Of a stretch of DNA of 45,080 bases, positions 1,061 to 19,419 are shown piece after piece (position 1 is the stretch's first letter; each line of letters begins with the position of its first letter). The notes below the pieces were generated by a model, which saw only the letters and a program-made list of their open reading frames with translations, did no database searches and was not told the origin of the DNA. The translations under genes and the position numbers were made by a program. The stretch lies in the IMG/VR virus record IMGVR_UViG_3300025617_000041, positions 1 through 45,080 of that record; one strand, 5' to 3'. Origin of the DNA: a virus.

Positions 1061-1340
1061 AAAAAGCTCAAGCTATCGTAGAGATTGCGAAATATATGAA
1101 AAGTATATTAATTTCTTACACGGTGCCGATCAAAAAGCATTTGAAGAAATGTATAAAACGTTTAAGAATCTTGTAGATGAGTTTGATAAACAAGCATTAT
1201 CGCTCGATAGTCATTCTATGACTTATAATACACACACTCAATTAAAAGACAGACTAAACGCTCATAAAAAGAAAATGGACGATCAAGTTAAGACTGAGAA
1301 ACATATTGCTCGACTGATTCAAAGTCGCTCAATGTCATAA
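1047..1340 (+). CDS. Small charged helical protein, unknown function
   Basis: This 97-residue product is rich in Lys, Glu, Asp and His and is predicted by eye to be almost wholly alpha-helical, with long heptad-like runs such as KAFEEMYKTFKNLVDEFDKQ. There is no signal peptide, membrane segment or cysteine-based motif. The ATG at 1047 lies inside the end of the Nudix-like gene and has a good ribosome site (GGAAAG) just upstream, typical of translational coupling. Its 3' end overlaps the convergent hldD-like gene by 53 bases. Small helical proteins in such positions in phages include small terminase subunits and assembly chaperones, but nothing here lets me choose. I do not recognise it. Confidence 0.6.
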   Translation: MISIKKSSSYRRDCEIYEKYINFLHGADQKAFEEMYKTFKNLVDEFDKQALSLDSHSMTYNTHTQLKDRLNAHKKKMDDQVKTEKHIARLIQSRSMS

Positions 1341-2172
1341 CATCATTTAATTTTCTCATATCTGCTTTTGTAAAAATTTGATATTGGCCTTCTAAATTTT
1401 TAGGAAACGCAATTTCTTCAATACCAGCATTATATCTAGAAGCAATAATTTCAGCAACTTCTTTAAAACTGATAGCGTTGCCAGTACCTAGATTAAATAC
1501 CCCGTTAAATGGTTCTTTACTTGCTTGTATAACTGTTTTAACAACATCGTTAACACACACAAAGTCTCTTTTATAATTTTCGCTTCCTTCAAATATATAA
1601 ATTTTTTTCTTTTCTTTTGCTTGCTTAGTAAACTTGTGTACAGGACTTGCTTGGTCACCTTTAAACTGTTCGCCTTCACCGTAAACATTAAAGTAGCGCC
1701 AGCCTTGAATTTTAGCATCGGGCTTTACTTTTAAAATTTCTTCAACTTTTTTATCTAGTATTGCTTTACTTTCAGCATACAAAGATTTAGGATTAGGTTC
1801 AGCATCTTCTTTAAAATATAAATCTGTACCATATACTCCAGCAGAACTAGCATATGAAAATAAAATATTATGCTCCAAACAATCGTGTAATAATTTAATT
1901 GACGGTTTAATATTGTACCCATCAATCTTTGCTTTGTTTGTTTCTGTCGTACTGCTTATTGCTCCATTATGGAATACACATTCTATGTTTTTCCAATCAT
2001 TAAAATTAGCGTAAAACTCTCGCATTTGTATTAATGCTTTGTATTCACATCCAGCAATATTGTCTGCTTTTTTTGATTCATCAACTAAGATTAAATCTGT
2101 TCGTCCTTGTTTATTAAGTTCTTTAACAATGTTTGAACCAATAAATCCAAGTGCTCCTGTTACTATAATCAT
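1288..2172 (-). CDS. hldD: ADP-L-glycero-D-manno-heptose 6-epimerase (HldD/RfaD family)
   Basis: A 294-residue extended short-chain dehydrogenase. HldD interconverts ADP-D-glycero- and ADP-L-glycero-D-manno-heptose using tightly bound NADP, the last step in making the heptose donor for lipopolysaccharide. Visible signatures in order: the Rossmann loop GALGFIGSN (residues 6-14); HNGAISSTTET (68-78), the family's HxGAxSxTTE block; SSAGVYG (109-115); the catalytic pair Y132 and K136 in YAESK; GWRYFNVYG (167-175); KGDQAS (181-186), whose Lys corresponds to a lysine implicated in HldD catalysis; FEGSENYKRDF (204-214); and FTKAD near the end. Length is close to the usual 310 residues. Its ATG overlaps the TGA of the HAD gene (ATGA), making it the last gene of a four-gene operon. 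Family assignment is strong. Use in phage-directed glycan synthesis is inference. Confidence 0.93.
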   Translation of the reverse strand: MIIVTGALGFIGSNIVKELNKQGRTDLILVDESKKADNIAGCEYKALIQMREFYANFNDWKNIECVFHNGAISSTTETNKAKIDGYNIKPSIKLLHDCLEHNILFSYASSAGVYGTDLYFKEDAEPNPKSLYAESKAILDKKVEEILKVKPDAKIQGWRYFNVYGEGEQFKGDQASPVHKFTKQAKEKKKIYIFEGSENYKRDFVCVNDVVKTVIQASKEPFNGVFNLGTGNAISFKEVAEIIASRYNAGIEEIAFPKNLEGQYQIFTKADMRKLNDVMTLSDFESVEQYVSQS

Positions 2173-2462
2173 TTAAAATACTCTTCCGAATTAACTGCTT
2201 TGTCATCTATCCATAAATCATAATGTGGCTTAGATGTCTTTATCGATGTATATTTAACTCCCCAGTCGGATAATTGAGATTTTGTGAAGAGGTACCAATC
2301 CATTCCTGATTGTGCTCCTCGAGCAGTCCAGTAATGAATTTCATGGCCTTCATCGTATAGCTTGTTTAGTTGTTCAATGCGTTTTGTAATAGGTTGGCTT
2401 TCTTTATAGTTGCTACTTTTTGTAGATGCTATAGTGCCGTCTATATCAACTATATAAATCAT
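2169..2462 (-). CDS. Small HAD-superfamily phosphatase of the sugar/LPS biosynthesis type
   Basis: A 97-residue minimal HAD hydrolase. Motif I is DIDGT (D6 nucleophile, D8 general acid-base), motif II is T46 in YWTARG, and motif IV is the acidic pair in WIDDKA (D86, D87). There is no cap domain of useful size. Such short HAD proteins occur in capsule and lipopolysaccharide clusters, where they dephosphorylate sugar phosphates. Position between hldE, the cupin gene and hldD suggests it could remove the 7-phosphate from heptose-1,7-bisphosphate, the job of GmhB. GmhB is about 190 residues with a zinc loop that is absent here, so this would be a non-orthologous replacement. Start codon overlaps the cupin stop by one base (TAATG), and its TGA overlaps the hldD start. 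The superfamily is certain; the substrate is inferred. Confidence 0.85.
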   Translation of the reverse strand: MIYIVDIDGTIASTKSSNYKESQPITKRIEQLNKLYDEGHEIHYWTARGAQSGMDWYLFTKSQLSDWGVKYTSIKTSKPHYDLWIDDKAVNSEEYFK

Positions 2463-2836
2463 TAAGTTTCCTGCTGTTGACTATCACCTGGAATAATTCT
2501 AAAATTATCTTCAACCGAATCCGGTGTGCTAACTTCAGTAATGCTACTCATTGGCTCTAGAGCTTCAAGCTGATGAGGCTGTAACGGAGGATTATGCCAA
2601 GTGTCACCGTCTTTTAATTCTTTTTCAAATAATTTTGCTTCCTTAGTGTCGATCCAGCGTACTTTAAATCTTCCATTATTAACAAACCAAGTTTCGTCTT
2701 TGTCCTTGTGGAAGTGCATACTAAACTTCGCTCCTACTTTTTCAAATACCATAATCTTACCGCAGTATTTGTCGTTGGTTGCCCAAATTAATTCATAGCC
2801 CCAACCTTTATCTACTTTGCCTTCAAGTCGTGTCAT
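2462..2836 (-). CDS. Cupin-fold protein, phosphomannose-isomerase-like
   Basis: A 124-residue single-domain cupin. Cupin motif 1 is seen as GAKFSMHFHKDKDETWFVNNG, split here as metal ligands H41, H43 and E48 followed by G55. Motif 2 contains the fourth ligand H88 in the DGDTWHNPP to QPHQLEA stretch. The final segment, EVSTPDSVEDNFRI, matches the pattern at the end of the phosphomannose-isomerase-like cupin domain of ManC-type proteins. It probably binds a sugar phosphate or nucleotide sugar and may isomerise it. It overlaps hldE by 4 bases (ATGA) and the HAD gene by 1 base, so it is an integral part of the heptose operon. All four metal ligands are present, which argues for an active enzyme. 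The reaction is unknown. Confidence 0.82.
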   Translation of the reverse strand: MTRLEGKVDKGWGYELIWATNDKYCGKIMVFEKVGAKFSMHFHKDKDETWFVNNGRFKVRWIDTKEAKLFEKELKDGDTWHNPPLQPHQLEALEPMSSITEVSTPDSVEDNFRIIPGDSQQQET

Positions 2837-4089
2837 TTAGTTTCCTCTAATATTTTAGATGTGCTATAATCTTTTACTCTTGGAAAGATTACAACTTCTG
2901 CTAGATCATGTCCAACAGTTGTTTCAACAGTGTAGTCTCCGCCCTTTACTATTATATCTGGTTTTACAGATTTAATCAAGTCATAAGGAGTATCTTCGGT
3001 AAAAATAATTACTTCGTCTACAATAGCAAGGCTTTCGAGCATTGTTTTTCTATCTTCTTGATTAAACTTTGGACGACTGTCTCCTTTAAGTTTCTTAACA
3101 CTAGCATCACTGTTTATTGCTACAATTAATTTATCACCTTGTTGTTTAGCAAATTTTAATAATTTTAAATGACCCAGATGTAATACATCAAAACACCCGT
3201 TTGTAAAAACAACTTTTTCTTTAATATCTTTTTCTTTTACACAGTATGTGCCGTTGTGACTAACTGCTATACTTGCTACTTTAGCGGCGATTTCTAATGA
3301 TTCTTCTAATGTGTAATCATTTGTTAGTCCATAAACAATACCTGCTAGTGTACTATCGCCTGCTCCGGTAATATCAAAAACCTCAGTTTCAAAACTCGAT
3401 TGTCTTTGAATGTATCCGTCTTTGCCGACTAATATCATTCCGTCTGGGCCTAGTGTGATAAGCATATATTCGAAGTTATACTTCTTACAAGCAAGTATGC
3501 CTTTGCGAATCATATCATCGTAATCTTTAAAATCGTTTACAAGTTCAGCAAATTCTTTTTTATTAGGCTTTACTAACCAAGCATTTTTATAATTATGAAG
3601 ATTTTGTTTAGGATCAACTATAACTTTAATATTTCTATTTTTTAATTTTTCAAACTGCTCTGAACAATCTCCAATGGTACCTTTGTTATAATCGCTTACA
3701 ATAAGATACTGAGTATCTTCACTGCAGTACTGCTCAACATTAATAGGATTTGAAAATCTTTTTTCGTTATCGATTCTAGCAATCTGTTGATTATTACAAA
3801 TTAAACGTTTTTTTGTAATAGTAGGACAATCGTTATCTTTAAGATAACTTACATAGATTGGTGATAAGAATTCAGAAAGCATTACTGCTTCTTCATCACA
3901 GCCAACTTTACCAATAGCATTAACTTTACATCCTAATGTGCTGAGATTCTGAGCAACGTTTGCGGCACCGCCTGCCGCATACTCTGTTTTAATTGTTTTG
4001 ATAACTGGAACAGGAGCTTCTGGACTTATTCTGTCCGAAACACCGTATTCGAATATATCTAAAATGAAGTCGCCAATAACTGTAATCAT
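2833..4089 (-). CDS. hldE: Bifunctional heptose-7-phosphate kinase / heptose-1-phosphate adenylyltransferase (HldE/RfaE family)
   Basis: A 418-residue two-domain enzyme. Residues 1 to about 275 form a ribokinase (PfkB)-type kinase: substrate loop GGAANVAQNL (40-49), ATP region, and the catalytic anion hole DITGAGDST (229-237). Residues about 281-418 form a nucleotidyltransferase: GCFDVLHLGHL (288-298) carries the HxGH motif (H294, H297), followed by KLKGDSRPKF, EDRKTMLESL, VKGGDY (361-366) and the C-terminal YSTSKILEE. HldE phosphorylates D-glycero-D-manno-heptose 7-phosphate at C1 and, after removal of the 7-phosphate, adenylylates it. Domain order is the standard one; total length is somewhat short of the 477 residues in E. 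coli, the loss lying in the kinase half. There is no clear Shine-Dalgarno, and the gene begins 47 bases after the giant gene upstream. It is first of the four-gene operon. Confidence 0.93.
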   Translation of the reverse strand: MITVIGDFILDIFEYGVSDRISPEAPVPVIKTIKTEYAAGGAANVAQNLSTLGCKVNAIGKVGCDEEAVMLSEFLSPIYVSYLKDNDCPTITKKRLICNNQQIARIDNEKRFSNPINVEQYCSEDTQYLIVSDYNKGTIGDCSEQFEKLKNRNIKVIVDPKQNLHNYKNAWLVKPNKKEFAELVNDFKDYDDMIRKGILACKKYNFEYMLITLGPDGMILVGKDGYIQRQSSFETEVFDITGAGDSTLAGIVYGLTNDYTLEESLEIAAKVASIAVSHNGTYCVKEKDIKEKVVFTNGCFDVLHLGHLKLLKFAKQQGDKLIVAINSDASVKKLKGDSRPKFNQEDRKTMLESLAIVDEVIIFTEDTPYDLIKSVKPDIIVKGGDYTVETTVGHDLAEVVIFPRVKDYSTSKILEETK

Positions 4090-11338: not shown

Positions 11339-12910
11339 TTATAATCTACCAACTACAATCTCTATTGTGCCTACCACTTGGGTATCACTATATCCTTCTA
11401 ATGCTTTTCCAATTACACTTCCCATCTTAGGATCTTGACTGGCAGTTGCTACACCTTCGATATCACTAACAATTAACATATCTCCTTTGGCTACTTCTCC
11501 TACTACTTTACATGGAACTCGTCCTTGTAAAGCAACAGTTACAGTATTTTCAACAGACAGTTCATTATTCATGATAAATGCTGGATTAGTTGAAACTACT
11601 CCTGCTACTTTTCTATTTCCAATACCTGTTGCCGCTGTTACTTCTTTTGGGCCTCCAAATATTAAAACCGTACCAGGTTCGTAATTATTATCGGCTTCAT
11701 ATTTCTCTGCTAAGTCAGCCCATCTTGCTGTTTGTGCTGTAGCATTTAGTGTAGAAGTATCAACATCAACTGTGATGCCGCTATTAGCATATAAGATATT
11801 TCCACTAATACTTGAAGTTCCGCTAGCCATAACTAATGGATAAGTGTTTGATGTAACAGGATTAACAATAACAGTACTGGCTGTTCCGCCACCACCACCA
11901 CCACCGCCGATAGCACTAATTGTAACAGTATCAGTTACCGAATCAGTTGTAAGAATGATGTTTGCGCCAGCAGTTAATGTTAGCTGATCTTGTTCTCTGT
12001 CAGCAATCAAACTGTCTTGTCCCGCAACAGCTACTACTCCAAAACTAGGACCTGAATTAGCTGACACTGCCGCCACCGCCTGTCCGCCGCCACCGGTTGA
12101 ATTAATTATAATTTCTTTTGTGATAGGATCTGAAGTAATATCAATATTAGATCCAGCTCTTAATGTAAGGTTATCGTTTGTACTTGATGATACAATATCG
12201 TTTTGTCCAGGTACTATAATTCTATTAAAATAATTTACTATGTCACCATCAATCTTTGTACCTTCGGGTAAATTAATAGTACTACCTGTTGCTGAAATCG
12301 GTGCGTTATTAAAGTATACAGTATCTTTTACATATAAGTTATCCCAGGTATTTGTTATACTACCTAAATTATATGTAGCGTCGGTATCAGGAACAATATG
12401 AGAATCAATTGCTGTTAATACAATGTTCGTACCGCTATTAACACCGCCGCCGCTGCCGCCTGGAGTCGGGTCAGGTTGTGTATTAGGTACTAAGAATGTT
12501 TTATTAACTGGCGGAACAAGTGTATTAATTGATCCGCTATAGCTAACATTAAAGATTGCTTTACAACCTTCAAACGCTGTAATCTTAGCTGACAGTTTGA
12601 TACTTACATAACTGTCATTAACTTCAGCACTAATATCTACAATTTCGTCATCAATAGAAGCACGGCCAAATACAGCAAAGTTAGCCTCATCTGGTCTAGC
12701 AACTACCATCACTTGTAGAGTTTCTTTTTTGTTTGAATCTACTTCGACAGTAATATTATATGTAGCACTGGCAAAATCTCCAACATACCATCTATCTATT
12801 TCAGTATCTTGAAATATAGAAGTCCAAGGCCCGTTATATAAAAACTGGCCGCCGTTTTTAAACAGTAATGTGTTGTGTACACCACGTGAAAAGAATGTTG
12901 GAAAACTCAT
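11339..12910 (-). CDS. Tail-fibre protein with poly-Gly linkers and conserved C-terminal fibre domain
   Basis: A 523-residue virion protein. The N-terminal part begins MSFPTFFSRGVHNTLLFKNG, then beta-sandwich-like strands to about residue 150. The middle holds two related units of about 60 residues (DNLTLRAGSNIDITSDPIT and DQLTLTAGANIILTTDSVT), each ended by a glycine run; the second run is eight glycines. The last 135 residues form a domain starting ARWADLAEKYEADNNYEPGT and including GVVSTNP, VALQGRVPCKV, KGDMLIVSDIEG and VIGKALEG, a C-terminal domain I recall from fibre proteins of many environmental phages. The ATG follows an AGGGATT ribosome site and a TTAAATAC late-promoter-like box, and the gene lies just beyond the carbamoyltransferase terminator, so it starts a new transcription unit. 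Tail-fibre assignment is likely; the receptor is unknown. Confidence 0.82.
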   Translation of the reverse strand: MSFPTFFSRGVHNTLLFKNGGQFLYNGPWTSIFQDTEIDRWYVGDFASATYNITVEVDSNKKETLQVMVVARPDEANFAVFGRASIDDEIVDISAEVNDSYVSIKLSAKITAFEGCKAIFNVSYSGSINTLVPPVNKTFLVPNTQPDPTPGGSGGGVNSGTNIVLTAIDSHIVPDTDATYNLGSITNTWDNLYVKDTVYFNNAPISATGSTINLPEGTKIDGDIVNYFNRIIVPGQNDIVSSSTNDNLTLRAGSNIDITSDPITKEIIINSTGGGGQAVAAVSANSGPSFGVVAVAGQDSLIADREQDQLTLTAGANIILTTDSVTDTVTISAIGGGGGGGGTASTVIVNPVTSNTYPLVMASGTSSISGNILYANSGITVDVDTSTLNATAQTARWADLAEKYEADNNYEPGTVLIFGGPKEVTAATGIGNRKVAGVVSTNPAFIMNNELSVENTVTVALQGRVPCKVVGEVAKGDMLIVSDIEGVATASQDPKMGSVIGKALEGYSDTQVVGTIEIVVGRL

Positions 12911-12949: not shown

Positions 12950-12982
12950 AGAAAAAGATAAGCCCCCAATTAAGGGGGCTTA
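12950..12982 (-). terminator. Rho-independent terminator after the carbamoyltransferase gene
   Basis: A perfect 9-bp stem (TAAGCCCCC at 12974-12982 on the minus strand pairs with GGGGGCTTA at 12959-12967) with a six-base loop is followed on the minus strand by TCTTTTTCTTT. It starts 4 bases after the stop codon of the carbamoyltransferase gene. It is the strongest terminator in the window and separates the sugar-transfer genes from the downstream fibre genes. Confidence 0.9.
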
Positions 12983-12985
12983 GTG

Positions 12986-14794
12986 CTAGTTCTTAACTGT
13001 GATTAGCTTACCGTACTCGGGCAAATACAAGTATTCAATTTCGCTTCGAACTAGCGTTTCAACAGCATTATCAAGTGTTTCGACCAAAGGATCTCCACCA
13101 AGATTAAAACTTGTGTTGAAAATGATTGGTATCTCTGTAGCATCGTAAAATGATTTAATAAGATCATAATAGTGAGGATTTTGATCCCGTTTCACCGTTT
13201 GAATTCTACAGGTACCATCTACGTGAATGATTGAAGGAATTTTTTCTTCAATACCAGGCTGGCAATTTACAGCATACATCATATGCGGTGTTTCATCCAT
13301 GCCACGTAGATCAAACCATTCGTGTACATGTTCATGAAGAATAGTACCAGCAAATGGTCTAAAGTATTCTCTATGCTTAACCTTGTTGACGTGATCTTTG
13401 CCATCAGGATCAGTTGGATCGTAGAGAATACTTCTATTTCCAAGGGCTCTTGGACCATTCTCGGAGCGACCTTGGAAAATTGTTACGATATTTCTGTTTT
13501 TAAGTAATGCTACTACGTCTTCGTTTGTAGCATCTTTTACTTCAGCATCATATTTTTCAACAACACTAGAAATATCTGAATCTGAATAATTATATTGTGG
13601 TCCTAGATACAGTGTATCTAATTTTTGAATTTCTGAACTACCTTCTTGGGCATGCCAAAACATAAGGGCGGCGCCCATAGCAGTTCCAGCATCATTTGAA
13701 ATAGGTTCAACATAAATTTCAATGCCTTCACCTTTTAATGCTTCAAGGTAATGATAGTTAGCAACACAATTAAGTCCGTAGCCACCACTAATAACAACTT
13801 TCTTTTTACCTGTCATTTCAACTGCTTTACGGATTAAATTAGTAACCTGTTCTTGTGTTTCTGTTTGACAAGCATACGCTAAGTCACGTCTGCTTTGTAA
13901 CAGAGTTACATCATCTGTTGGGTTTTCTGGCCACTCATTTAGTGCTTCATACAAGACAGAATTTACTCTACCACTAGCAGGATAAAGAGGAATAATTGCG
14001 TTTCTGTTACTAAACTCAGCAGTTCCTACTTTTTCAAACAACGGTGGAATACCATCGTTGGGTTTTCCATATGGAAATAGCCCCATAGTTTTGCCTGCTT
14101 CAATTGAACTCCAGCCGCAATACTCAGTTACACCTTCATAAGTTTTTACAATTCCGGCTCTGTCAGTTAACCATGCTTCGTGTGTTTCACCCGGCTCGCC
14201 AAATTGTTCACTTGATAAATCTGGAATATAATTAGACGAAATCGCCTCTTTTGTTCCGTAATGTTTATACAGCGTTTTAAACTCTGCTGGATAGTTACAG
14301 TCTACAATAGATTCGACTTCCCAAACCCATAGCGGTTGATTATCATAAGCCATTTGAATAAATGTGCCTGCGCCATCAACAATTAAACTAACAGCGTCAT
14401 CAAAACCAGAACGGAAAAAAGCACAAGCTGAATGAAGTTTATGATGCATATAACTTAGGTCTACTACTTGAGGATGATTATGTAAATCAACTCCTCTATT
14501 TTCAATTAAGCCCATTTTACGTGCTAGACCTGTATACACATCATCGCCTGTATAGTCAACTGTACCTGCTGTATCTTTTAACGATTGTGTATGAGCTACA
14601 ACAAGATAATCAATTTTATCTGTGTATTCTAAAATTTTCATAATAGAAGCATAAGGACCTCCATCATATTTTTGTCTAGTTAGTCGTTCTTCTTCAATAG
14701 AAAAAACAATTTCACCGTCTTTCATTAAACACACGCCGGAATTATGCCCACGTGCGATTGCCGCAATCCAACCAGTCTTTTTTATTTCTTTCAT
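12986..14794 (-). CDS. Carbamoyltransferase of the NodU/CmcH/TobZ family
   Basis: A 602-residue, apparently complete two-domain enzyme. This family transfers carbamoyl from carbamoyl phosphate, via carbamoyl-AMP, to a hydroxyl of a sugar or similar acceptor. The N-terminal Kae1-like domain has GHNSG with H17, EEERLTR (34-40), HHKLH with H117 and H121, and VDGAG with D140. These lie within a few residues of the metal ligands I recall for TobZ. Next come GWSSIEAGKTMGLFPYGKP, VVISGGYGLNCVANY and ISNDAGTAMGAAL. The C-terminal YrdC-like part has GRSENGPRALGNRSIL, KHREYFRPFAGTIL, HVDGTCRIQTV and IIFNTSFNLGGDPLV. Every recognised catalytic block is present. Its start overlaps the stop of the GT9 gene by 4 bases, so the two are coupled. 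The acceptor is probably the sugar added by that transferase; DNA-base modification is an alternative with less support. Confidence 0.92.
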   Translation of the reverse strand: MKEIKKTGWIAAIARGHNSGVCLMKDGEIVFSIEEERLTRQKYDGGPYASIMKILEYTDKIDYLVVAHTQSLKDTAGTVDYTGDDVYTGLARKMGLIENRGVDLHNHPQVVDLSYMHHKLHSACAFFRSGFDDAVSLIVDGAGTFIQMAYDNQPLWVWEVESIVDCNYPAEFKTLYKHYGTKEAISSNYIPDLSSEQFGEPGETHEAWLTDRAGIVKTYEGVTEYCGWSSIEAGKTMGLFPYGKPNDGIPPLFEKVGTAEFSNRNAIIPLYPASGRVNSVLYEALNEWPENPTDDVTLLQSRRDLAYACQTETQEQVTNLIRKAVEMTGKKKVVISGGYGLNCVANYHYLEALKGEGIEIYVEPISNDAGTAMGAALMFWHAQEGSSEIQKLDTLYLGPQYNYSDSDISSVVEKYDAEVKDATNEDVVALLKNRNIVTIFQGRSENGPRALGNRSILYDPTDPDGKDHVNKVKHREYFRPFAGTILHEHVHEWFDLRGMDETPHMMYAVNCQPGIEEKIPSIIHVDGTCRIQTVKRDQNPHYYDLIKSFYDATEIPIIFNTSFNLGGDPLVETLDNAVETLVRSEIEYLYLPEYGKLITVKN

Positions 14795-15732
14795 TTTTGT
14801 TTTTTCCCTAGTACCGTATTAACAACATAATCTTGAATAGGTCCTGTCATAGTCATAATAGTTTCATGATGTCTATCTACAGTCTCATCCATTGTAATTC
14901 TAATTGGAGAATACTGACGTTCTTCCTCACCAAAATCTACAATATTCATGTTTGAATCATTAGGATAAGAAACATTAATTGGGTATGTTGATCCTAGTAT
15001 TACAGTACTCTTTGTTCCAACAATGTGTGCTAAATGTTGACCAACACTGTCACAACCTAGGAAGTGATCAGCATACTTAATCAATCCAGCCCACTGTCGA
15101 AGGTTTAATCCTTCTGGTGAAGCAACATCGTCTTTGTATTTCTCTTGAGTTAAATCCATTTTATATTCACTCATTAAAATAACCCCAAAATTCTTTTCTT
15201 GAAATTTTCCAATAAGTGCTTTTAGATCTTTATACTCAATACTGCGTGATGTTGGATCTAAGAATGTTTCGTCAACATATTGAATCCCTCTACCAAAAGG
15301 CTGGATAACAATAATTTTTTCTTTTTTGAGTTTTTCTTTAACTTGTGTTACCATTTGACGCCCAGTAACTAGTTCTTCCTTACTCAAACGCAATGTAGGC
15401 TTATCTAAATCTCTAACACCTTGATTATTAATTTCAATATCAAATGCTTGAGCTAGACTACATTGCTGATTATAATATTCCCAAACCCTATAAGGTTCAG
15501 TACTTACAATTTGTCTTTCACGAAGTTTGTCTTCAAACAAGTTTTTGTGCATTACATCGTATGTTCTTTTATCTAAAGACGGATGCCCTTTAAAAATATC
15601 ACTTCCGCCTTCGCATACAATAATAAAGTCTTTGTCTCCCGATTCTTTTTCATATTTTTCCAATGCGGGAATAGAGCAAATCATTCGGCCTGCTCCGCCA
15701 TTTAAGAAAAATGCTTTTGATTTCTGTTCCAT
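14791..15732 (-). CDS. Glycosyltransferase, GT9 (ADP-heptose:LPS heptosyltransferase) type
   Basis: A 313-residue GT-B fold enzyme. The N-terminal acceptor-domain loop is NGGAGRMICSIPALE (11-25), matching the GGxGDxxxxxPxLxxL start of GT9 heptosyltransferases with Arg in place of Asp. The middle has QPFGRG (144-149). The nucleotide-sugar site is YADHFLGCDSVGQHLAHIVG (220-239), the family's D-S/T-x-x-x-H-L-A block, followed by VILGSTYP. Family members move heptose from ADP-heptose to lipopolysaccharide core; related proteins glycosylate adhesins. The hldE-hldD operon elsewhere in the window would supply this donor. The ATG has a GGAG ribosome site, and the gene follows a 78-base gap with an inverted repeat. 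It is coupled to the carbamoyltransferase by an ATGA overlap. Fold assignment is good; donor and acceptor are inferred. Confidence 0.82.
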   Translation of the reverse strand: MEQKSKAFFLNGGAGRMICSIPALEKYEKESGDKDFIIVCEGGSDIFKGHPSLDKRTYDVMHKNLFEDKLRERQIVSTEPYRVWEYYNQQCSLAQAFDIEINNQGVRDLDKPTLRLSKEELVTGRQMVTQVKEKLKKEKIIVIQPFGRGIQYVDETFLDPTSRSIEYKDLKALIGKFQEKNFGVILMSEYKMDLTQEKYKDDVASPEGLNLRQWAGLIKYADHFLGCDSVGQHLAHIVGTKSTVILGSTYPINVSYPNDSNMNIVDFGEEERQYSPIRITMDETVDRHHETIMTMTGPIQDYVVNTVLGKKQK

Positions 15733-15748
15733 TTGTACTCCAAGAATA

Positions 15749-15794
15749 TAGGTCCGATGCTAATATATATTTTAATATAAAAGTACCGGACCTA
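15749..15794. repeat. 8-bp perfect inverted repeat around an AT-rich spacer
   Basis: TAGGTCCG at 15749-15756 and CGGACCTA at 15787-15794 are exact reverse complements separated by 30 bases that are almost only A and T and contain a further TATATT-TT-AATATA dyad. It fills most of the 78-base gap ahead of the GT9 gene. On the minus strand the 3' arm ends 8 bases before the GGAG ribosome site. No canonical late box was seen inside it. It could be an attenuator, an mRNA-processing hairpin or a protein-binding dyad. Confidence 0.6.
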
Positions 15795-15810
15795 GATCTG
15801 GATCAAATGA

Positions 15811-16461
15811 TTATTGTATTGTTGGTAAATCTACTGGAAAAGGAATTTTCCAATGTGCGTGATCAGCATACTTTGTTGGAATACTGCGTAACCACGATAC
15901 ATGTTCTCTTAGTGCAGCATCATCTTCATCAGTATAATCTGTTTCGTCACTATCAAGGTTTGCTTCAAGTTCATCCGCATAATTAGCCCACTGTAGAAGC
16001 GTATCTTCTCTAGTGTTAGCATGTTGTCTAAGTTCAGGGCCGCTAAAAGTATTATTAGCTGGATTCCAAACTACTGATTCATTGTAACACACTTGACCAA
16101 TAACACCACTGTCATCATAAGTGTAATTAAACGTAAATGTTTCACCATCTGCGTCTGTTAGTTCTTCTGAAATGTCTTCAATTTCTTCATGCGAGTAACA
16201 ATGAGTAAAGTATGCAGCAATCTTTGGATGATCCTTTGCTTGAACAGCAATATGATAATGGCCATCTTCAATTTGATTTTCCATGTTTAGCTCGGCTTCT
16301 GTTTCACCAGCCATTTCTAAGTTTCTTACTTTGTGTGTGTTATTTTCAACACAAAAGCATAACCATTTTGGACCGTCATACGTACAATTTACCGTTTTGT
16401 TTAACTCGGTAGTATTTAAGTATGGTCCATCTGGTAGTGTAAATGTAAATTGTTTAATCAT
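15811..16461 (-). CDS. Hypothetical protein, possible tail-fibre assembly factor
   Basis: A 216-residue acidic protein (many Asp and Glu) without signal or membrane segments. The N-terminal 140 residues are beta-rich and contain FTFNYTYDDSGVIGQVCYN. The C-terminal 75 residues are helical (LLQWANYADELEANLD, then DDAALREHVSWLRSIPTKYA) and end with a Trp-Lys-Ile-Pro-Phe-Pro segment. That helix-plus-W-x-x-P ending resembles C-terminal parts of phage tail-fibre assembly chaperones, which have a conserved Trp-Arg-x-x-Leu-Arg region followed by a proline-rich end. It directly follows the three Cys-rich putative adhesins, the position in which fibre chaperones or adhesin assembly factors are often found. 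The gene has a GAGG ribosome site. Its function is only a suggestion; I do not recognise the family with certainty. Confidence 0.6.
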   Translation of the reverse strand: MIKQFTFTLPDGPYLNTTELNKTVNCTYDGPKWLCFCVENNTHKVRNLEMAGETEAELNMENQIEDGHYHIAVQAKDHPKIAAYFTHCYSHEEIEDISEELTDADGETFTFNYTYDDSGVIGQVCYNESVVWNPANNTFSGPELRQHANTREDTLLQWANYADELEANLDSDETDYTDEDDAALREHVSWLRSIPTKYADHAHWKIPFPVDLPTIQ

Positions 16462-16485: not shown

Positions 16486-17466
16486 TTACGATTCAATAAA
16501 GCGAATTCTAATTCCGCCATGTCCACCTCTTGTACCGTGATCTCTCACGTCTGGGCAAGGTGTTGGTGGAACACCACCTGATCCAATTGGGCCATATGGG
16601 AAACAACCGTGCATGTTGTAACAACCACAAGCTCTGTTTGAACGCCAGCAATAGTTAAAAGGAATACCTCTTGTTGGCGACTTACTTAACGCATTAACAG
16701 CGTTAACCATTTGCTTTCTTCCCTGTCCTGACCAAAGTGAGTGTCTATTGTCGTTCTCAGTTCTGTAAGTAGCATGACTTCCATCTCCGCAACTAAACAT
16801 GTGCGAAGGTAGTGGAATACTGTAGTAAAATTGACATGGACATCTTGGATAACATCCAAAGAAGTGCGAACAACCAACTTGTCCGCAACAGTTTACGTCA
16901 CCGCCGAAACCACAAGCAATCCAGCCACTGCCGTTAGCACAATAGTTACAAGCAACACCACAGTTATCACCTGATGTACGTGTAACACAGAAACCGTTTG
17001 CTCTAAAGCAACAGTATCCTGATGGTGTAGTTGAACAAATACTTACTCCGCCCTTACCACCTTGAGCACACAAGCATCCATCTGTGCTTACTCCGTCATT
17101 GCCATTCCAGCAAATTCCAGTTGGTTCTGAACATCCTCTAAAGCACAAGTCATCAGCATTACCACAACTAAAACCTACGTTTCCGGTAACAATTTGACCT
17201 TGTGTCATTGTAATTTGTTTTCTAGTATATGCTCCTGCGTTGCCTGGAAGTCCAAACCCACAACAGCACATTTCAGCACCTGATCCTCCAGCTCCCCATG
17301 CTTCAAGAATTGCAGTTCCATCTGCTGGAGCAATCCAACAAATTCCCTGTCTAAAAAATTGATACATGGTTCCTGGACTGAATACATACACTTTACCTTT
17401 GTTAAGGTTTTCTTCTGTTCTTTCAGTTGCTCTTTCTTTTAGTAAGTTTTTTAATGATATCGCCAT
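16486..17466 (-). CDS. Glycine- and cysteine-rich putative adhesin, paralogue 1 of 3
   Basis: A 326-residue protein with 30 cysteines (about 9 percent) and many glycines. A short charged N-terminal helix (residues 1-25) leads to a beta segment ending ICWIAPADGTAILEAWGAGG, then Gly- and Cys-dense loops (EMCCCGFGLPGNAGAY, GFSCGNADDLCFRGC, CAQGGKGG, CGCYNMHGC), and a conserved end VRDHGTRGGHGGIRIRF. Length and cysteine positions closely match the next two genes. Glycine-loop domains of this sort recall receptor-binding gp38-like adhesins of T-even phages that pack as polyglycine helices, but those are not cysteine-rich. There is no signal peptide, so any disulfides or metal sites must form in or after exit from the cytoplasm. 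It lies one base from paralogue 2. The adhesin role is inferred from glycine loops and neighbouring fibre genes. Confidence 0.8.
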   Translation of the reverse strand: MAISLKNLLKERATERTEENLNKGKVYVFSPGTMYQFFRQGICWIAPADGTAILEAWGAGGSGAEMCCCGFGLPGNAGAYTRKQITMTQGQIVTGNVGFSCGNADDLCFRGCSEPTGICWNGNDGVSTDGCLCAQGGKGGVSICSTTPSGYCCFRANGFCVTRTSGDNCGVACNYCANGSGWIACGFGGDVNCCGQVGCSHFFGCYPRCPCQFYYSIPLPSHMFSCGDGSHATYRTENDNRHSLWSGQGRKQMVNAVNALSKSPTRGIPFNYCWRSNRACGCYNMHGCFPYGPIGSGGVPPTPCPDVRDHGTRGGHGGIRIRFIES

Positions 17467-17467
17467 A

Positions 17468-18448
17468 TTAACTCGCCTTTATAAATTTAATTCTTAAAGA
17501 GCCGTGCCCACCTCTCCAAGCGTGATCTCTAACACCCGGACATGGATGTGGAGGACCACCTGGATGACCTGCTGGACTAAAGGAAATACAACCCTGGTGA
17601 TTGTAACAACCACAACTTCTAGAACCGTTATAACAAATCTGTTCGCCCCACATACCTTCTCTTGACTGGCGACCCATTAAGCCTAACACACCAACAAATT
17701 GGAATTGGCCTGCGCTTCCTGAGTGTCTAGTATAACCAGCATCGGCATCATTAGTTACTGTTACTTCACCACCATCACAAGCGTGATAACCTGGTGGTGT
17801 AGCAAAGTGATAATAGAAACAGCATGGACACATTGGATGACATCCAAAGAATGATGCTCTACTATAACCACCTCTTAAATTAATATCGCCACCGAACGCA
17901 TCAGCACAACAGTCTGCTGTTCCTGGACCATAGTTACATACAATTCCACAGTTATTATTATTTGTTCTTGTAGCACAGAAACTAGCGTTAGCAAAACAAC
18001 AGTATAGTGCTGTATTTGTAGAACAATAAGAAGTACCACCTCTACCGCCTTGGGCACACATACATCCTGTAGTTCCAGCACACTGGAAAGTAATACAAGT
18101 TGCCTCTGAGCGTCCTCTGTAACAAATAGCATCTGCGTTGCCGCAACTAAATCCTGTTGTTCCTGTAACTGTACAACCTGCTAATACATCAATTGTTTTT
18201 CTTGAATATGCTCCCGGATTACCAGGTAGGCCGCCGCCGCAACAGCACATCTTTCCGCCACTGCCGCCTGCGCCCCAAATTTCAATAACTGCTGTCCCGT
18301 CTGCTGGAGCAACCCAACAAATTCCTGTATGGAAATTTGTATAGTTATTGGATGGCGCATATACCCATATTTGACCTTGCTCAATGTTTTCTTCATCTTG
18401 AGAAATAAAGTCTAGTCTGTCTTTTAAAAGGTTTTTTAATGTAGCCAT
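17468..18448 (-). CDS. Glycine- and cysteine-rich putative adhesin, paralogue 2 of 3
   Basis: A 326-residue paralogue with 29 cysteines. Shared landmarks are GICWVAPADGTAVIEIWGAG, the CCC triplet (here KMCCCGGGLPGNPGAY), GFSCGNADAICYRG, CMCAQGGRGG, the FFGCHPMCPCC cluster, CGCYNHQGC and the end VRDHAWRGGHGSLRIKF. It is the most diverged of the three: CRGRSEATC replaces CFRGCS, the region before the FGGD motif has a different Cys pattern, and the 70 residues before the CGCYN motif (ending GLMGRQSREG) are largely unlike the other two. The ATG is two bases downstream of the paralogue 3 stop. If these are adhesins, this copy may have a different specificity. Confident as a gene; function is inferred. 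Confidence 0.8.
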   Translation of the reverse strand: MATLKNLLKDRLDFISQDEENIEQGQIWVYAPSNNYTNFHTGICWVAPADGTAVIEIWGAGGSGGKMCCCGGGLPGNPGAYSRKTIDVLAGCTVTGTTGFSCGNADAICYRGRSEATCITFQCAGTTGCMCAQGGRGGTSYCSTNTALYCCFANASFCATRTNNNNCGIVCNYGPGTADCCADAFGGDINLRGGYSRASFFGCHPMCPCCFYYHFATPPGYHACDGGEVTVTNDADAGYTRHSGSAGQFQFVGVLGLMGRQSREGMWGEQICYNGSRSCGCYNHQGCISFSPAGHPGGPPHPCPGVRDHAWRGGHGSLRIKFIKAS

Positions 18449-18450
18449 CT

Positions 18451-19419
18451 TTAATCCTTTATGAACTTGATTCTAATTGAGCCGTCGCCGCCGGCCCTTG
18501 CGTGGTCACGTACACCTGGACATGGAAACGGTCCCATACCTGGATGACCAACTGGAGCATGTCTAGAACAACCTTCGTTGTTATAACAACCACAGCCTTT
18601 ACCACCATTCCAACAGTAAGCCCATGGAGTACCTTTTTCTGGAGTTCTCGAAAGTGCGTTAATAGCATAAATGTGTTGATGCATTCCGTGTCCTGACCAC
18701 TGTGAGAATCCGTTATTGTTTTCGGTGTTGAATGTAACTACGCCACCCTCCTTAGCAAACTGACCAGGGGGAACAGCTAAATGCCAATGGAAAAAACATG
18801 GACAACTTGGATGACATCCAAAGAAACTAACACAAGAGAAGCAACCTCCCATGTTTACGTCTCCGCCATACCCGCAAGCATGCCAATCGCTTTCTCTATA
18901 GTTACATACGATACCACAATGTGTATTATTTGTTTTTGTTACGCAAAAACCGCTTGCTCTAAAGCAACAATACCCGGAAGGTGTAGTTGAACAAATACTA
19001 GTTCCGCCACGTCCTCCTTGCGCACACATACATCCGCCTTGGCCGCCGTTTCCTCTCCAACATAAACATGTTGCTTGAGAACAACCTCTGAAACACAAGT
19101 CATCTGCGTTACCACAGCTTTTACCTACGTATCCACAAATGTAGCATCCTTCGTTAATTTGAATAGTTTTTTTAGCATAGGCTCCTGGATTACCTGGAAG
19201 TCCAAACCCACAACAGCACATTTCAGCACCTGAACCACCCGCTCCCCAAATTTCAATAACTGCTGTACCGTTGGCAGGGGCTACCCAACAAATTCCTTGA
19301 CAGAAATTTTCATAATCAGTACCTGGAGTGTAAGCATAAATTTGCCCTCTTTCCAGATTTTCTTCTTCGTCAAACAGTGCCTGATCTTTCGAAGTAAGTA
19401 GTTCTCTTAGTGTTGCCAT
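18451..19419 (-). CDS. Glycine- and cysteine-rich putative adhesin, paralogue 3 of 3 (first transcribed)
   Basis: A 322-residue paralogue with 31 cysteines, first of the triplet in the direction of transcription. The N-terminal helix is acidic, followed by QGICWVAPANGTAVIEIWGA, EMCCCGFGLPGNPGAY, KSCGNADDLCFRGCS, CMCAQGGRGG, SGYCCFRASGFC, FFGCHPSCPCFFHWH, CGCYNNEGC and VRDHARAGGDGSIRIKF. It shares with paralogue 1 a 41-base stretch of identical DNA (17243-17283 and 19193-19233), which paralogue 2 lacks, suggesting recent exchange. Cysteine pairs and C-x-C units dominate rather than any classic zinc-finger spacing. The gene has its own AGGATAG ribosome site, and the nearest clear late promoter is at 19791-19798, so the small upstream gene and the triplet probably form one late transcript. 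Confidence 0.8.
   Translation of the reverse strand: MATLRELLTSKDQALFDEEENLERGQIYAYTPGTDYENFCQGICWVAPANGTAVIEIWGAGGSGAEMCCCGFGLPGNPGAYAKKTIQINEGCYICGYVGKSCGNADDLCFRGCSQATCLCWRGNGGQGGCMCAQGGRGGTSICSTTPSGYCCFRASGFCVTKTNNTHCGIVCNYRESDWHACGYGGDVNMGGCFSCVSFFGCHPSCPCFFHWHLAVPPGQFAKEGGVVTFNTENNNGFSQWSGHGMHQHIYAINALSRTPEKGTPWAYCWNGGKGCGCYNNEGCSRHAPVGHPGMGPFPCPGVRDHARAGGDGSIRIKFIKD

Follow-up and report, generated by a model that had tools for sequence, protein, structure and literature searches.

A phage GT9-fold glycosyltransferase paired with a carbamoyltransferase is linked to cysteine- and glycine-rich fibre proteins as candidate substrates

The carbamoyltransferase TobZ carbamoylates a sugar hydroxyl. 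Among enzymes of the GT9 fold, the bacterial autotransporter heptosyltransferases (BAHT) TibC and AAH heptosylate adhesin proteins with ADP-heptose as the donor, and TibC requires a catalytic Asp base (PMC4358343). Virion proteins of mycobacteriophages are glycosylated as well (Freeman et al. 2023, as cited in PMC12619734), as we propose below for other phages; those glycans are on capsid and tail-tube C-termini and not on Cys-rich fibre tips. Phage glycosyltransferases are usually read as enzymes that modify DNA or lipopolysaccharide (LPS). Here we describe a GT9-fold enzyme whose gene is coupled to that of a TobZ/NodU-type carbamoyltransferase (CMT) in a 45,080-base IMG/VR fragment of a T4-like phage (IMGVR_UViG_3300025617_000041, hereafter the window; L002 is a near-identical longer relative), and comparative genomics ties this pair to a class of virion fibre proteins. 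We consider it probable that the GT9 enzyme glycosylates Cys/Gly-rich fibre proteins and that the attached sugar is then carbamoylated by the CMT; ADP-heptose, supplied by a phage cassette or by the host, is the probable donor.

The two genes are near-obligate partners, far beyond chance. In IMG/VR, where ORFs (open reading frames) were called mechanically and counts include near-duplicates, 76 loci were found with GT9, and a CMT gene lay next to or near it in all 74 evaluable ones, that is, those on a long enough contig. A partly redundant set of 80 loci was found independently with a CMT profile, and GT9 was nearby in 75 of 75 evaluable loci. GT9 was directly upstream of CMT in 67 of 75 evaluable loci, with the order reversed in two. 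The pair is present in many aquatic phages; in model cyanophages its genes are annotated as ‘hypothetical protein’ and ‘carbamoyltransferase’, and our literature searches found no functional work on it. The phages of the long IMG/VR relatives are probably not cyanophages, because psbA was absent in the 18 records of relatives checked.

Cys/Gly-rich proteins are the constant neighbour of the pair. In the window, three paralogues upstream of GT9 (16486-19419) contain 9–10% Cys and 16–17% Gly. With cut-offs set at 12% Gly and 4.5% Cys, 112 of 120 loci have such an ORF upstream of GT9. Among the eight exceptions, L168 falls just short of the cut-offs, related proteins are encoded on the opposite strand in L179 and L037 (recognized in L037 as homologues), L112 has Cys-rich proteins with lower Gly, and L162 and L182 have a reversed gene order; L157 carries a tryptophan halogenase and 2-oxoglutarate (2OG) oxygenases instead, and L174 has the same gene positions. 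In the reverse search, GT9 was within the stretch in 57 of 80 loci found by the Cys/Gly-rich family and elsewhere in 7 further records, the loci without GT9 being mostly short fragments. The P-SSM2 and S-SSM7 proteins are too divergent to be detected by the family profile, and tblastn with a Cys/Gly-rich protein against phages gave no match, probably owing to the low-complexity filter; whole-genome composition counts were used in place of the profile. Proteins with at least 8% Cys and at least 12% Gly numbered two to three per genome in all five GT9–CMT isolates and were absent from all ten GT9-negative relatives (p = 1/3003 on the assumption, not valid here, of independent genomes). Structure prediction gives the family a fold (predicted local distance difference test (pLDDT) 71, moderate) that resembles the tail-fibre tip of cyanophage Pam3 (7ypx, E = 3e-5) and the Bxb1 tail tip. 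The candidate acceptor shares its predicted fold with the fibre tips Pam3 gp24 and S16 gp38, which are described as glycine-rich with no mention of the cysteine richness seen in the phage candidates. In L227, L233, L236, L237 and L252, one extra Cys/Gly-rich copy is found away from GT9, close to the gene for the major capsid protein and with a giant fibre gene after it.

GT9 genes of this kind occur in no fewer than four phage lineages and in one archaeon. Distant relatives of GT9 that share the ‘GGxGR’ motif but lack a CMT partner are present in Vibrio phages D505 and SBP1, which are related to each other, and in Aeromonas phage HJ05. The gene after the GT9 relative of D505 encodes a 1756-residue tail protein that contains 41 Cys (no other protein of that genome has more than 11), and that of SBP1 has 41 Cys in 925 residues (4.4%, against up to 1.8% in other structural genes); in HJ05, the gene preceding the GT9 relative has 23 Cys in 559 residues (4.1%, against no more than 2.2% in the others). 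Six Vibrio phages outside the GT9-bearing records have homologues of the SBP1 protein that are almost Cys-free: across ~80 aligned Cys positions, a homologue had Cys only once, and the commonest substitutes were Ser, Glu, Val, Asp and Lys. Tolerance of charged residues at these positions would be expected if the cysteines are exposed and modified, and not if they are buried in disulphides. Moreover, a contig (L113:6034-11311) of a Woesearchaeota metagenome-assembled genome (MAG) encodes, one after another, a Cys/Gly-rich protein with a possible twin-arginine translocation (Tat) signal, GT9, CMT (with the ATGA overlap) and a HAD phosphatase; cellular genes, Cbf5 among them, lie on both sides. 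No second archaeal copy was found in the 288 genomes of the archaeal order searched, so the cassette was acquired horizontally or is what remains of a provirus; an artefact of assembly is less likely.

The pair is also linked to the ADP-heptose pathway. Genes for HldE, a HAD phosphatase, a cupin and HldD follow GT9–CMT directly or within a few genes in five isolated cyanophages (P-SSM2, S-SSM7, S-CAM1, S-CAM3 and Sf-FS3), a cassette with heptose genes is present in L074 too, and HldE-type genes were found in 5/5 GT9-positive versus 1/10 GT9-negative (S-SM2) Kyanoviridae tested. These distributions support the heptose connection made by the original prediction, whose four-function set recurs in other phages; in the window itself, the heptose operon and the pair are 9 kb apart. 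The window HldD is 40% identical to Escherichia coli HldD and retains S116, Y140, K144 and K178, and HldE (36% identical) retains the Asp of the kinase and the HxGH motif of the adenylyltransferase. No GmhA match was found among the operon genes searched, and the PHROG name ‘phosphoheptose isomerase’ falls on the HAD gene; given this lack of GmhA in the operon, the cupin may catalyse the sedoheptulose-7-phosphate isomerase step. Identity of the cupin between phages (window, L014, L030 and L057) is 70–86%, versus ~41% for HldE/HldD.

Archaea have no LPS, and the occurrence of the pair in a Woesearchaeote speaks against the alternative that carbamoylated heptose is put on host LPS or capsule, where it would block superinfection or change receptors. 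The GT9 fold is common to the LPS enzymes WaaC and WaaF, and such genes have been read as LPS genes in cyanophages and pelagiphages (PMC3037559; PMC7029224). However, the LPS of marine Synechococcus, including WH8102, has neither heptose nor 3-deoxy-D-manno-octulosonic acid (KDO) (PMC4515613), which disfavours LPS as the acceptor; WH8102 is the host of Sf-FS3, and the LPS of the hosts of several GT9 carriers is heptose-free. In addition, the cassette is placed among fibre genes, and a host-surface target leaves the association with Cys-rich fibre proteins unexplained. We thus judge modification of the host surface, which the original prediction had offered as one of two targets, to be distinctly improbable. 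Glycosylation of fibre proteins, if correct, would explain why phages whose hosts have heptose-free LPS encode an ADP-heptose pathway.

Assignment of the enzyme to GT9, made in the original prediction, is borne out by fold and only weakly by sequence. Its PF01075 match is weak (E = 0.0019, 18 bits, below the cut-off of 22), and phmmer and profile searches against PDB sequences gave no meaningful match, so that only fold comparison worked. The AlphaFold2 model (pLDDT 90.2; predicted template modelling score (pTM) 0.89) retrieved GT9 enzymes as all of its best 30 Foldseek matches in the PDB (3tov, TibC, WaaC and WaaF), and we regard the family as GT9-like but divergent, not as a standard Pfam member. 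Across 45 aligned family sequences, 37 residues are invariant, including the C-lobe donor-site motif D228-S229-x-G-Q-H233, in which the spacing of the G differs from D[ST]GxxH. The enzyme thus shares with WaaC/WaaF the fold and the D[ST]xxxH donor-site motif, at ~10–13% identity in structural alignments; hhalign of the family against single WaaC or WaaF sequences aligned the C-lobe alone. It also has the GT9-type GT-B fold in common with TibC and AAH. However, the iron-finger and β-hairpin thumb modules of those enzymes are probably absent, judging by its length of 313 residues, no equivalent of their catalytic Asp110 was identified, and its partners are a Cys/Gly-rich fibre protein and a coupled carbamoyltransferase.

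Several observations weigh against fibre glycosylation from ADP-heptose. Arg16, invariant in 45/45 sequences, stands at the place of the WaaC catalytic Asp13, and Arg163 stands at that of Lys192 (with moderate certainty of alignment there). Because both residues are replaced by Arg, activity and donor appear uncertain from sequence. A strong HldE match is missing in 6 of 14 long relatives, which together with these replacements weakens the original assignment of ADP-heptose as the donor, and heptose genes also occur in S-SM2, where GT9 is lacking. The kinship of the isolates means that the 5/5 versus 0/10 split overstates their independence, and the gene neighbourhood may merely reflect a late structural region. 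Finally, ~24 Cys columns of the Cys/Gly-rich family are at least 90% conserved, which fits structural disulphides too. Loss of the catalytic Asp and Lys could even mean that the GT9-like protein is no glycosyltransferase at all, but a carbohydrate- or fibre-binding helper. We regard this as highly improbable: the donor-site and other invariant residues are retained, the gene is coupled to sugar-nucleotide genes, and the invariance of Arg16 suggests that the mechanism has changed and was not lost.

Transfer to a thiol does not require a strong base, so an S-glycosyltransferase could dispense with the catalytic Asp, which fits cysteine as the modified residue. We therefore tentatively entertain the possibility, short of an even chance, that the ‘GR’ branch of GT9 consists of cysteine S-glycosyltransferases and that surface virion cysteines carry S-linked heptose, carbamoylated in most lineages. 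If true, a family of enzymes that form the rare link between a sugar and cysteine may have come to light. Alternatively, the targets may be giant Ser/Thr/Asn-rich fibres, or hydroxyl or amide side chains of the Cys-rich proteins, with Cys serving only for disulphides or metal. Indeed, TibC, one of the top structural matches, heptosylates Ser of autotransporters (PMC4358343), Ser plus Thr reach 22–25% in fibres of the window, many Cys columns are invariant, and some cassettes contain 2OG oxygenases. Nevertheless, GT9-negative cyanophages possess tail fibres, none of which is Cys-rich, whereas Cys enrichment follows GT9 across different sequence families, at positions often polar in homologues. 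Moreover, odd Cys counts are as frequent as even ones (90 versus 83 of 173 Cys/Gly-rich clusters), and full intramolecular pairing is thus not indicated. On balance, this alternative seems unlikely. The original prediction of the phage's own fibres as targets holds in part: the proteins that track the enzymes are those at 16486-19419, which it had not singled out, and not the Ser/Thr/Asn-rich fibres, which in the window are nearly Cys-free.

The second enzyme is, as first proposed, a TobZ-type carbamoyltransferase: it matches PF16861 (E = 5e-58) and PF02543 (E = 2e-25), and its nearest solved structures are the carbamoyltransferases 7xb6, GdmN and TobZ. It conserves H117, H121, D368, R449 and R479, which by analogy to TobZ we take to form the metal and carbamoyl-phosphate sites. 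The two-domain architecture and Kae1-like metal residues are common to TobZ, NodU and GdmN; unlike these, the window CMT is genetically tied to glycosyltransferase and fibre genes. To our knowledge, no carbamoylation has been described in mycobacteriophage virion glycosylation. Phage-encoded members of the same superfamily that carbamoylate 5-hydroxymethylcytosine (5hmC) do exist, as in a sewage phage (MetaGPA, eLife 2021; PMC8670742), which raises the alternative of DNA hypermodification. Those enzymes are associated with thymidylate synthase/dCMP hydroxymethylase, however, and carbamoyltransferases flanked by a glycosyltransferase come from contigs with unmodified DNA (PMC8670742). The thymidylate synthase family PF00303 is absent in 14/14 long relatives, and the window CMT falls in a GT9-linked clade apart from GT9-free CMTs (moderate support, long branches). 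We accordingly assign a DNA target a very small probability. A separate, GT9-free phage CMT branch is represented by S-RIM44 (L098:4364-6619), whose divergent CMT is annotated as two ORFs beside ThyX.

Based on these comparisons, we propose a plausible pathway for fibre glycosylation. ADP-heptose would be made by the phage through HldE, the HAD phosphatase, HldD and probably the cupin, or borrowed from the host. Inside the infected cell, the GT9-fold enzyme would then move the sugar onto the Cys/Gly-rich fibre-tip proteins, whose genes lie a short way upstream of its own, possibly through the cysteine sulphur, before or during fibre assembly. The CMT would subsequently cap a hydroxyl of the attached sugar, using carbamoyl phosphate and ATP. 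Such a modification would likely alter receptor binding, stability or solubility of the Cys-rich fibre tips.

The arrangement of the locus (Table 1) agrees with the original description: both ORFs lie on the minus strand where it had placed them and share the ATGA overlap, the inverted repeat upstream and the minus-strand terminator downstream are real (z = −5.9 and −2.8, respectively), and fibre or structural genes stand on either side. Of 151 loci, 111 have a member of the orf216 family upstream of GT9, and a tail-assembly chaperone (PF16778) takes its place between the Cys/Gly-rich protein and GT9 in some relatives. The stem-loop that separates orf216 from GT9 is AU-rich (−21 kcal/mol) and could act in processing or in the manner of a terminator.

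Table 1 Features of the window discussed in the text
Feature	Position	Strand	Remarks
HldD-like ADP-heptose 6-epimerase	1288..2172	-	S/Y/K/K catalytic residues kept
HAD phosphatase, EcbF/BcbF-like	2169..2462	-	Possible GmhB role
Cupin of heptose operon	2462..2836	-	Possible stand-in for GmhA isomerase step
HldE-like bifunctional heptose-7-P kinase/heptose-1-P adenylyltransferase	2833..4089	-	
Fibre-like protein downstream of CMT gene	11339..12910	-	N-terminal part kept beside CMT in most loci
Intrinsic terminator downstream of CMT gene	12959..12982	-	9 pairs and T-tract
TobZ/NodU-type O-carbamoyltransferase (CMT)	12986..14794	-	602 residues; Kae1-like metal residues H117, H121 and D368 invariant
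ATGA stop/start overlap of GT9 and CMT genes	14791..14794	-	Translational coupling
GT9-fold glycosyltransferase	14791..15732	-	Family motif NGGxGR(16); D228-S229-x-G-Q-H233; phrog_8954, E = 3e-132
Stem-loop upstream of GT9 gene	15746..15797	-	Arms 15746-15768/15775-15797
orf216, between Cys-rich proteins and GT9	15811..16461	-	Possible fibre chaperone
Cys/Gly-rich fibre-type protein	16486..17466	-	Candidate acceptor; 326 residues, 30 Cys
Cys/Gly-rich fibre-type protein	17468..18448	-	Candidate acceptor; 326 residues, 29 Cys
Cys/Gly-rich fibre-type protein	18451..19419	-	Candidate acceptor; 322 residues, 31 Cys

Some cassettes contain additional genes. In seven loci (L031, L034, L037, L044, L047, L054 and L077), an extra gene of ~280–320 codons lies between GT9 and CMT; its product has no Pfam match, and its GCS(F/Y)T and D-x-HPS motifs recall SGNH esterases, acetyltransferases or hydrolases. 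2OG-Fe(II) oxygenases are found in or beside the cassette in L079, L082, L074 and L157, and a tryptophan halogenase in S-SSM7 (L079) and L157, which suggests further modification chemistry. The fibre cassette of the window is also present in L106, L107 and L109–L111, contigs from MAGs labelled Euryarchaeota or Neomarinimicrobiota; these look like phage contigs binned with cells.

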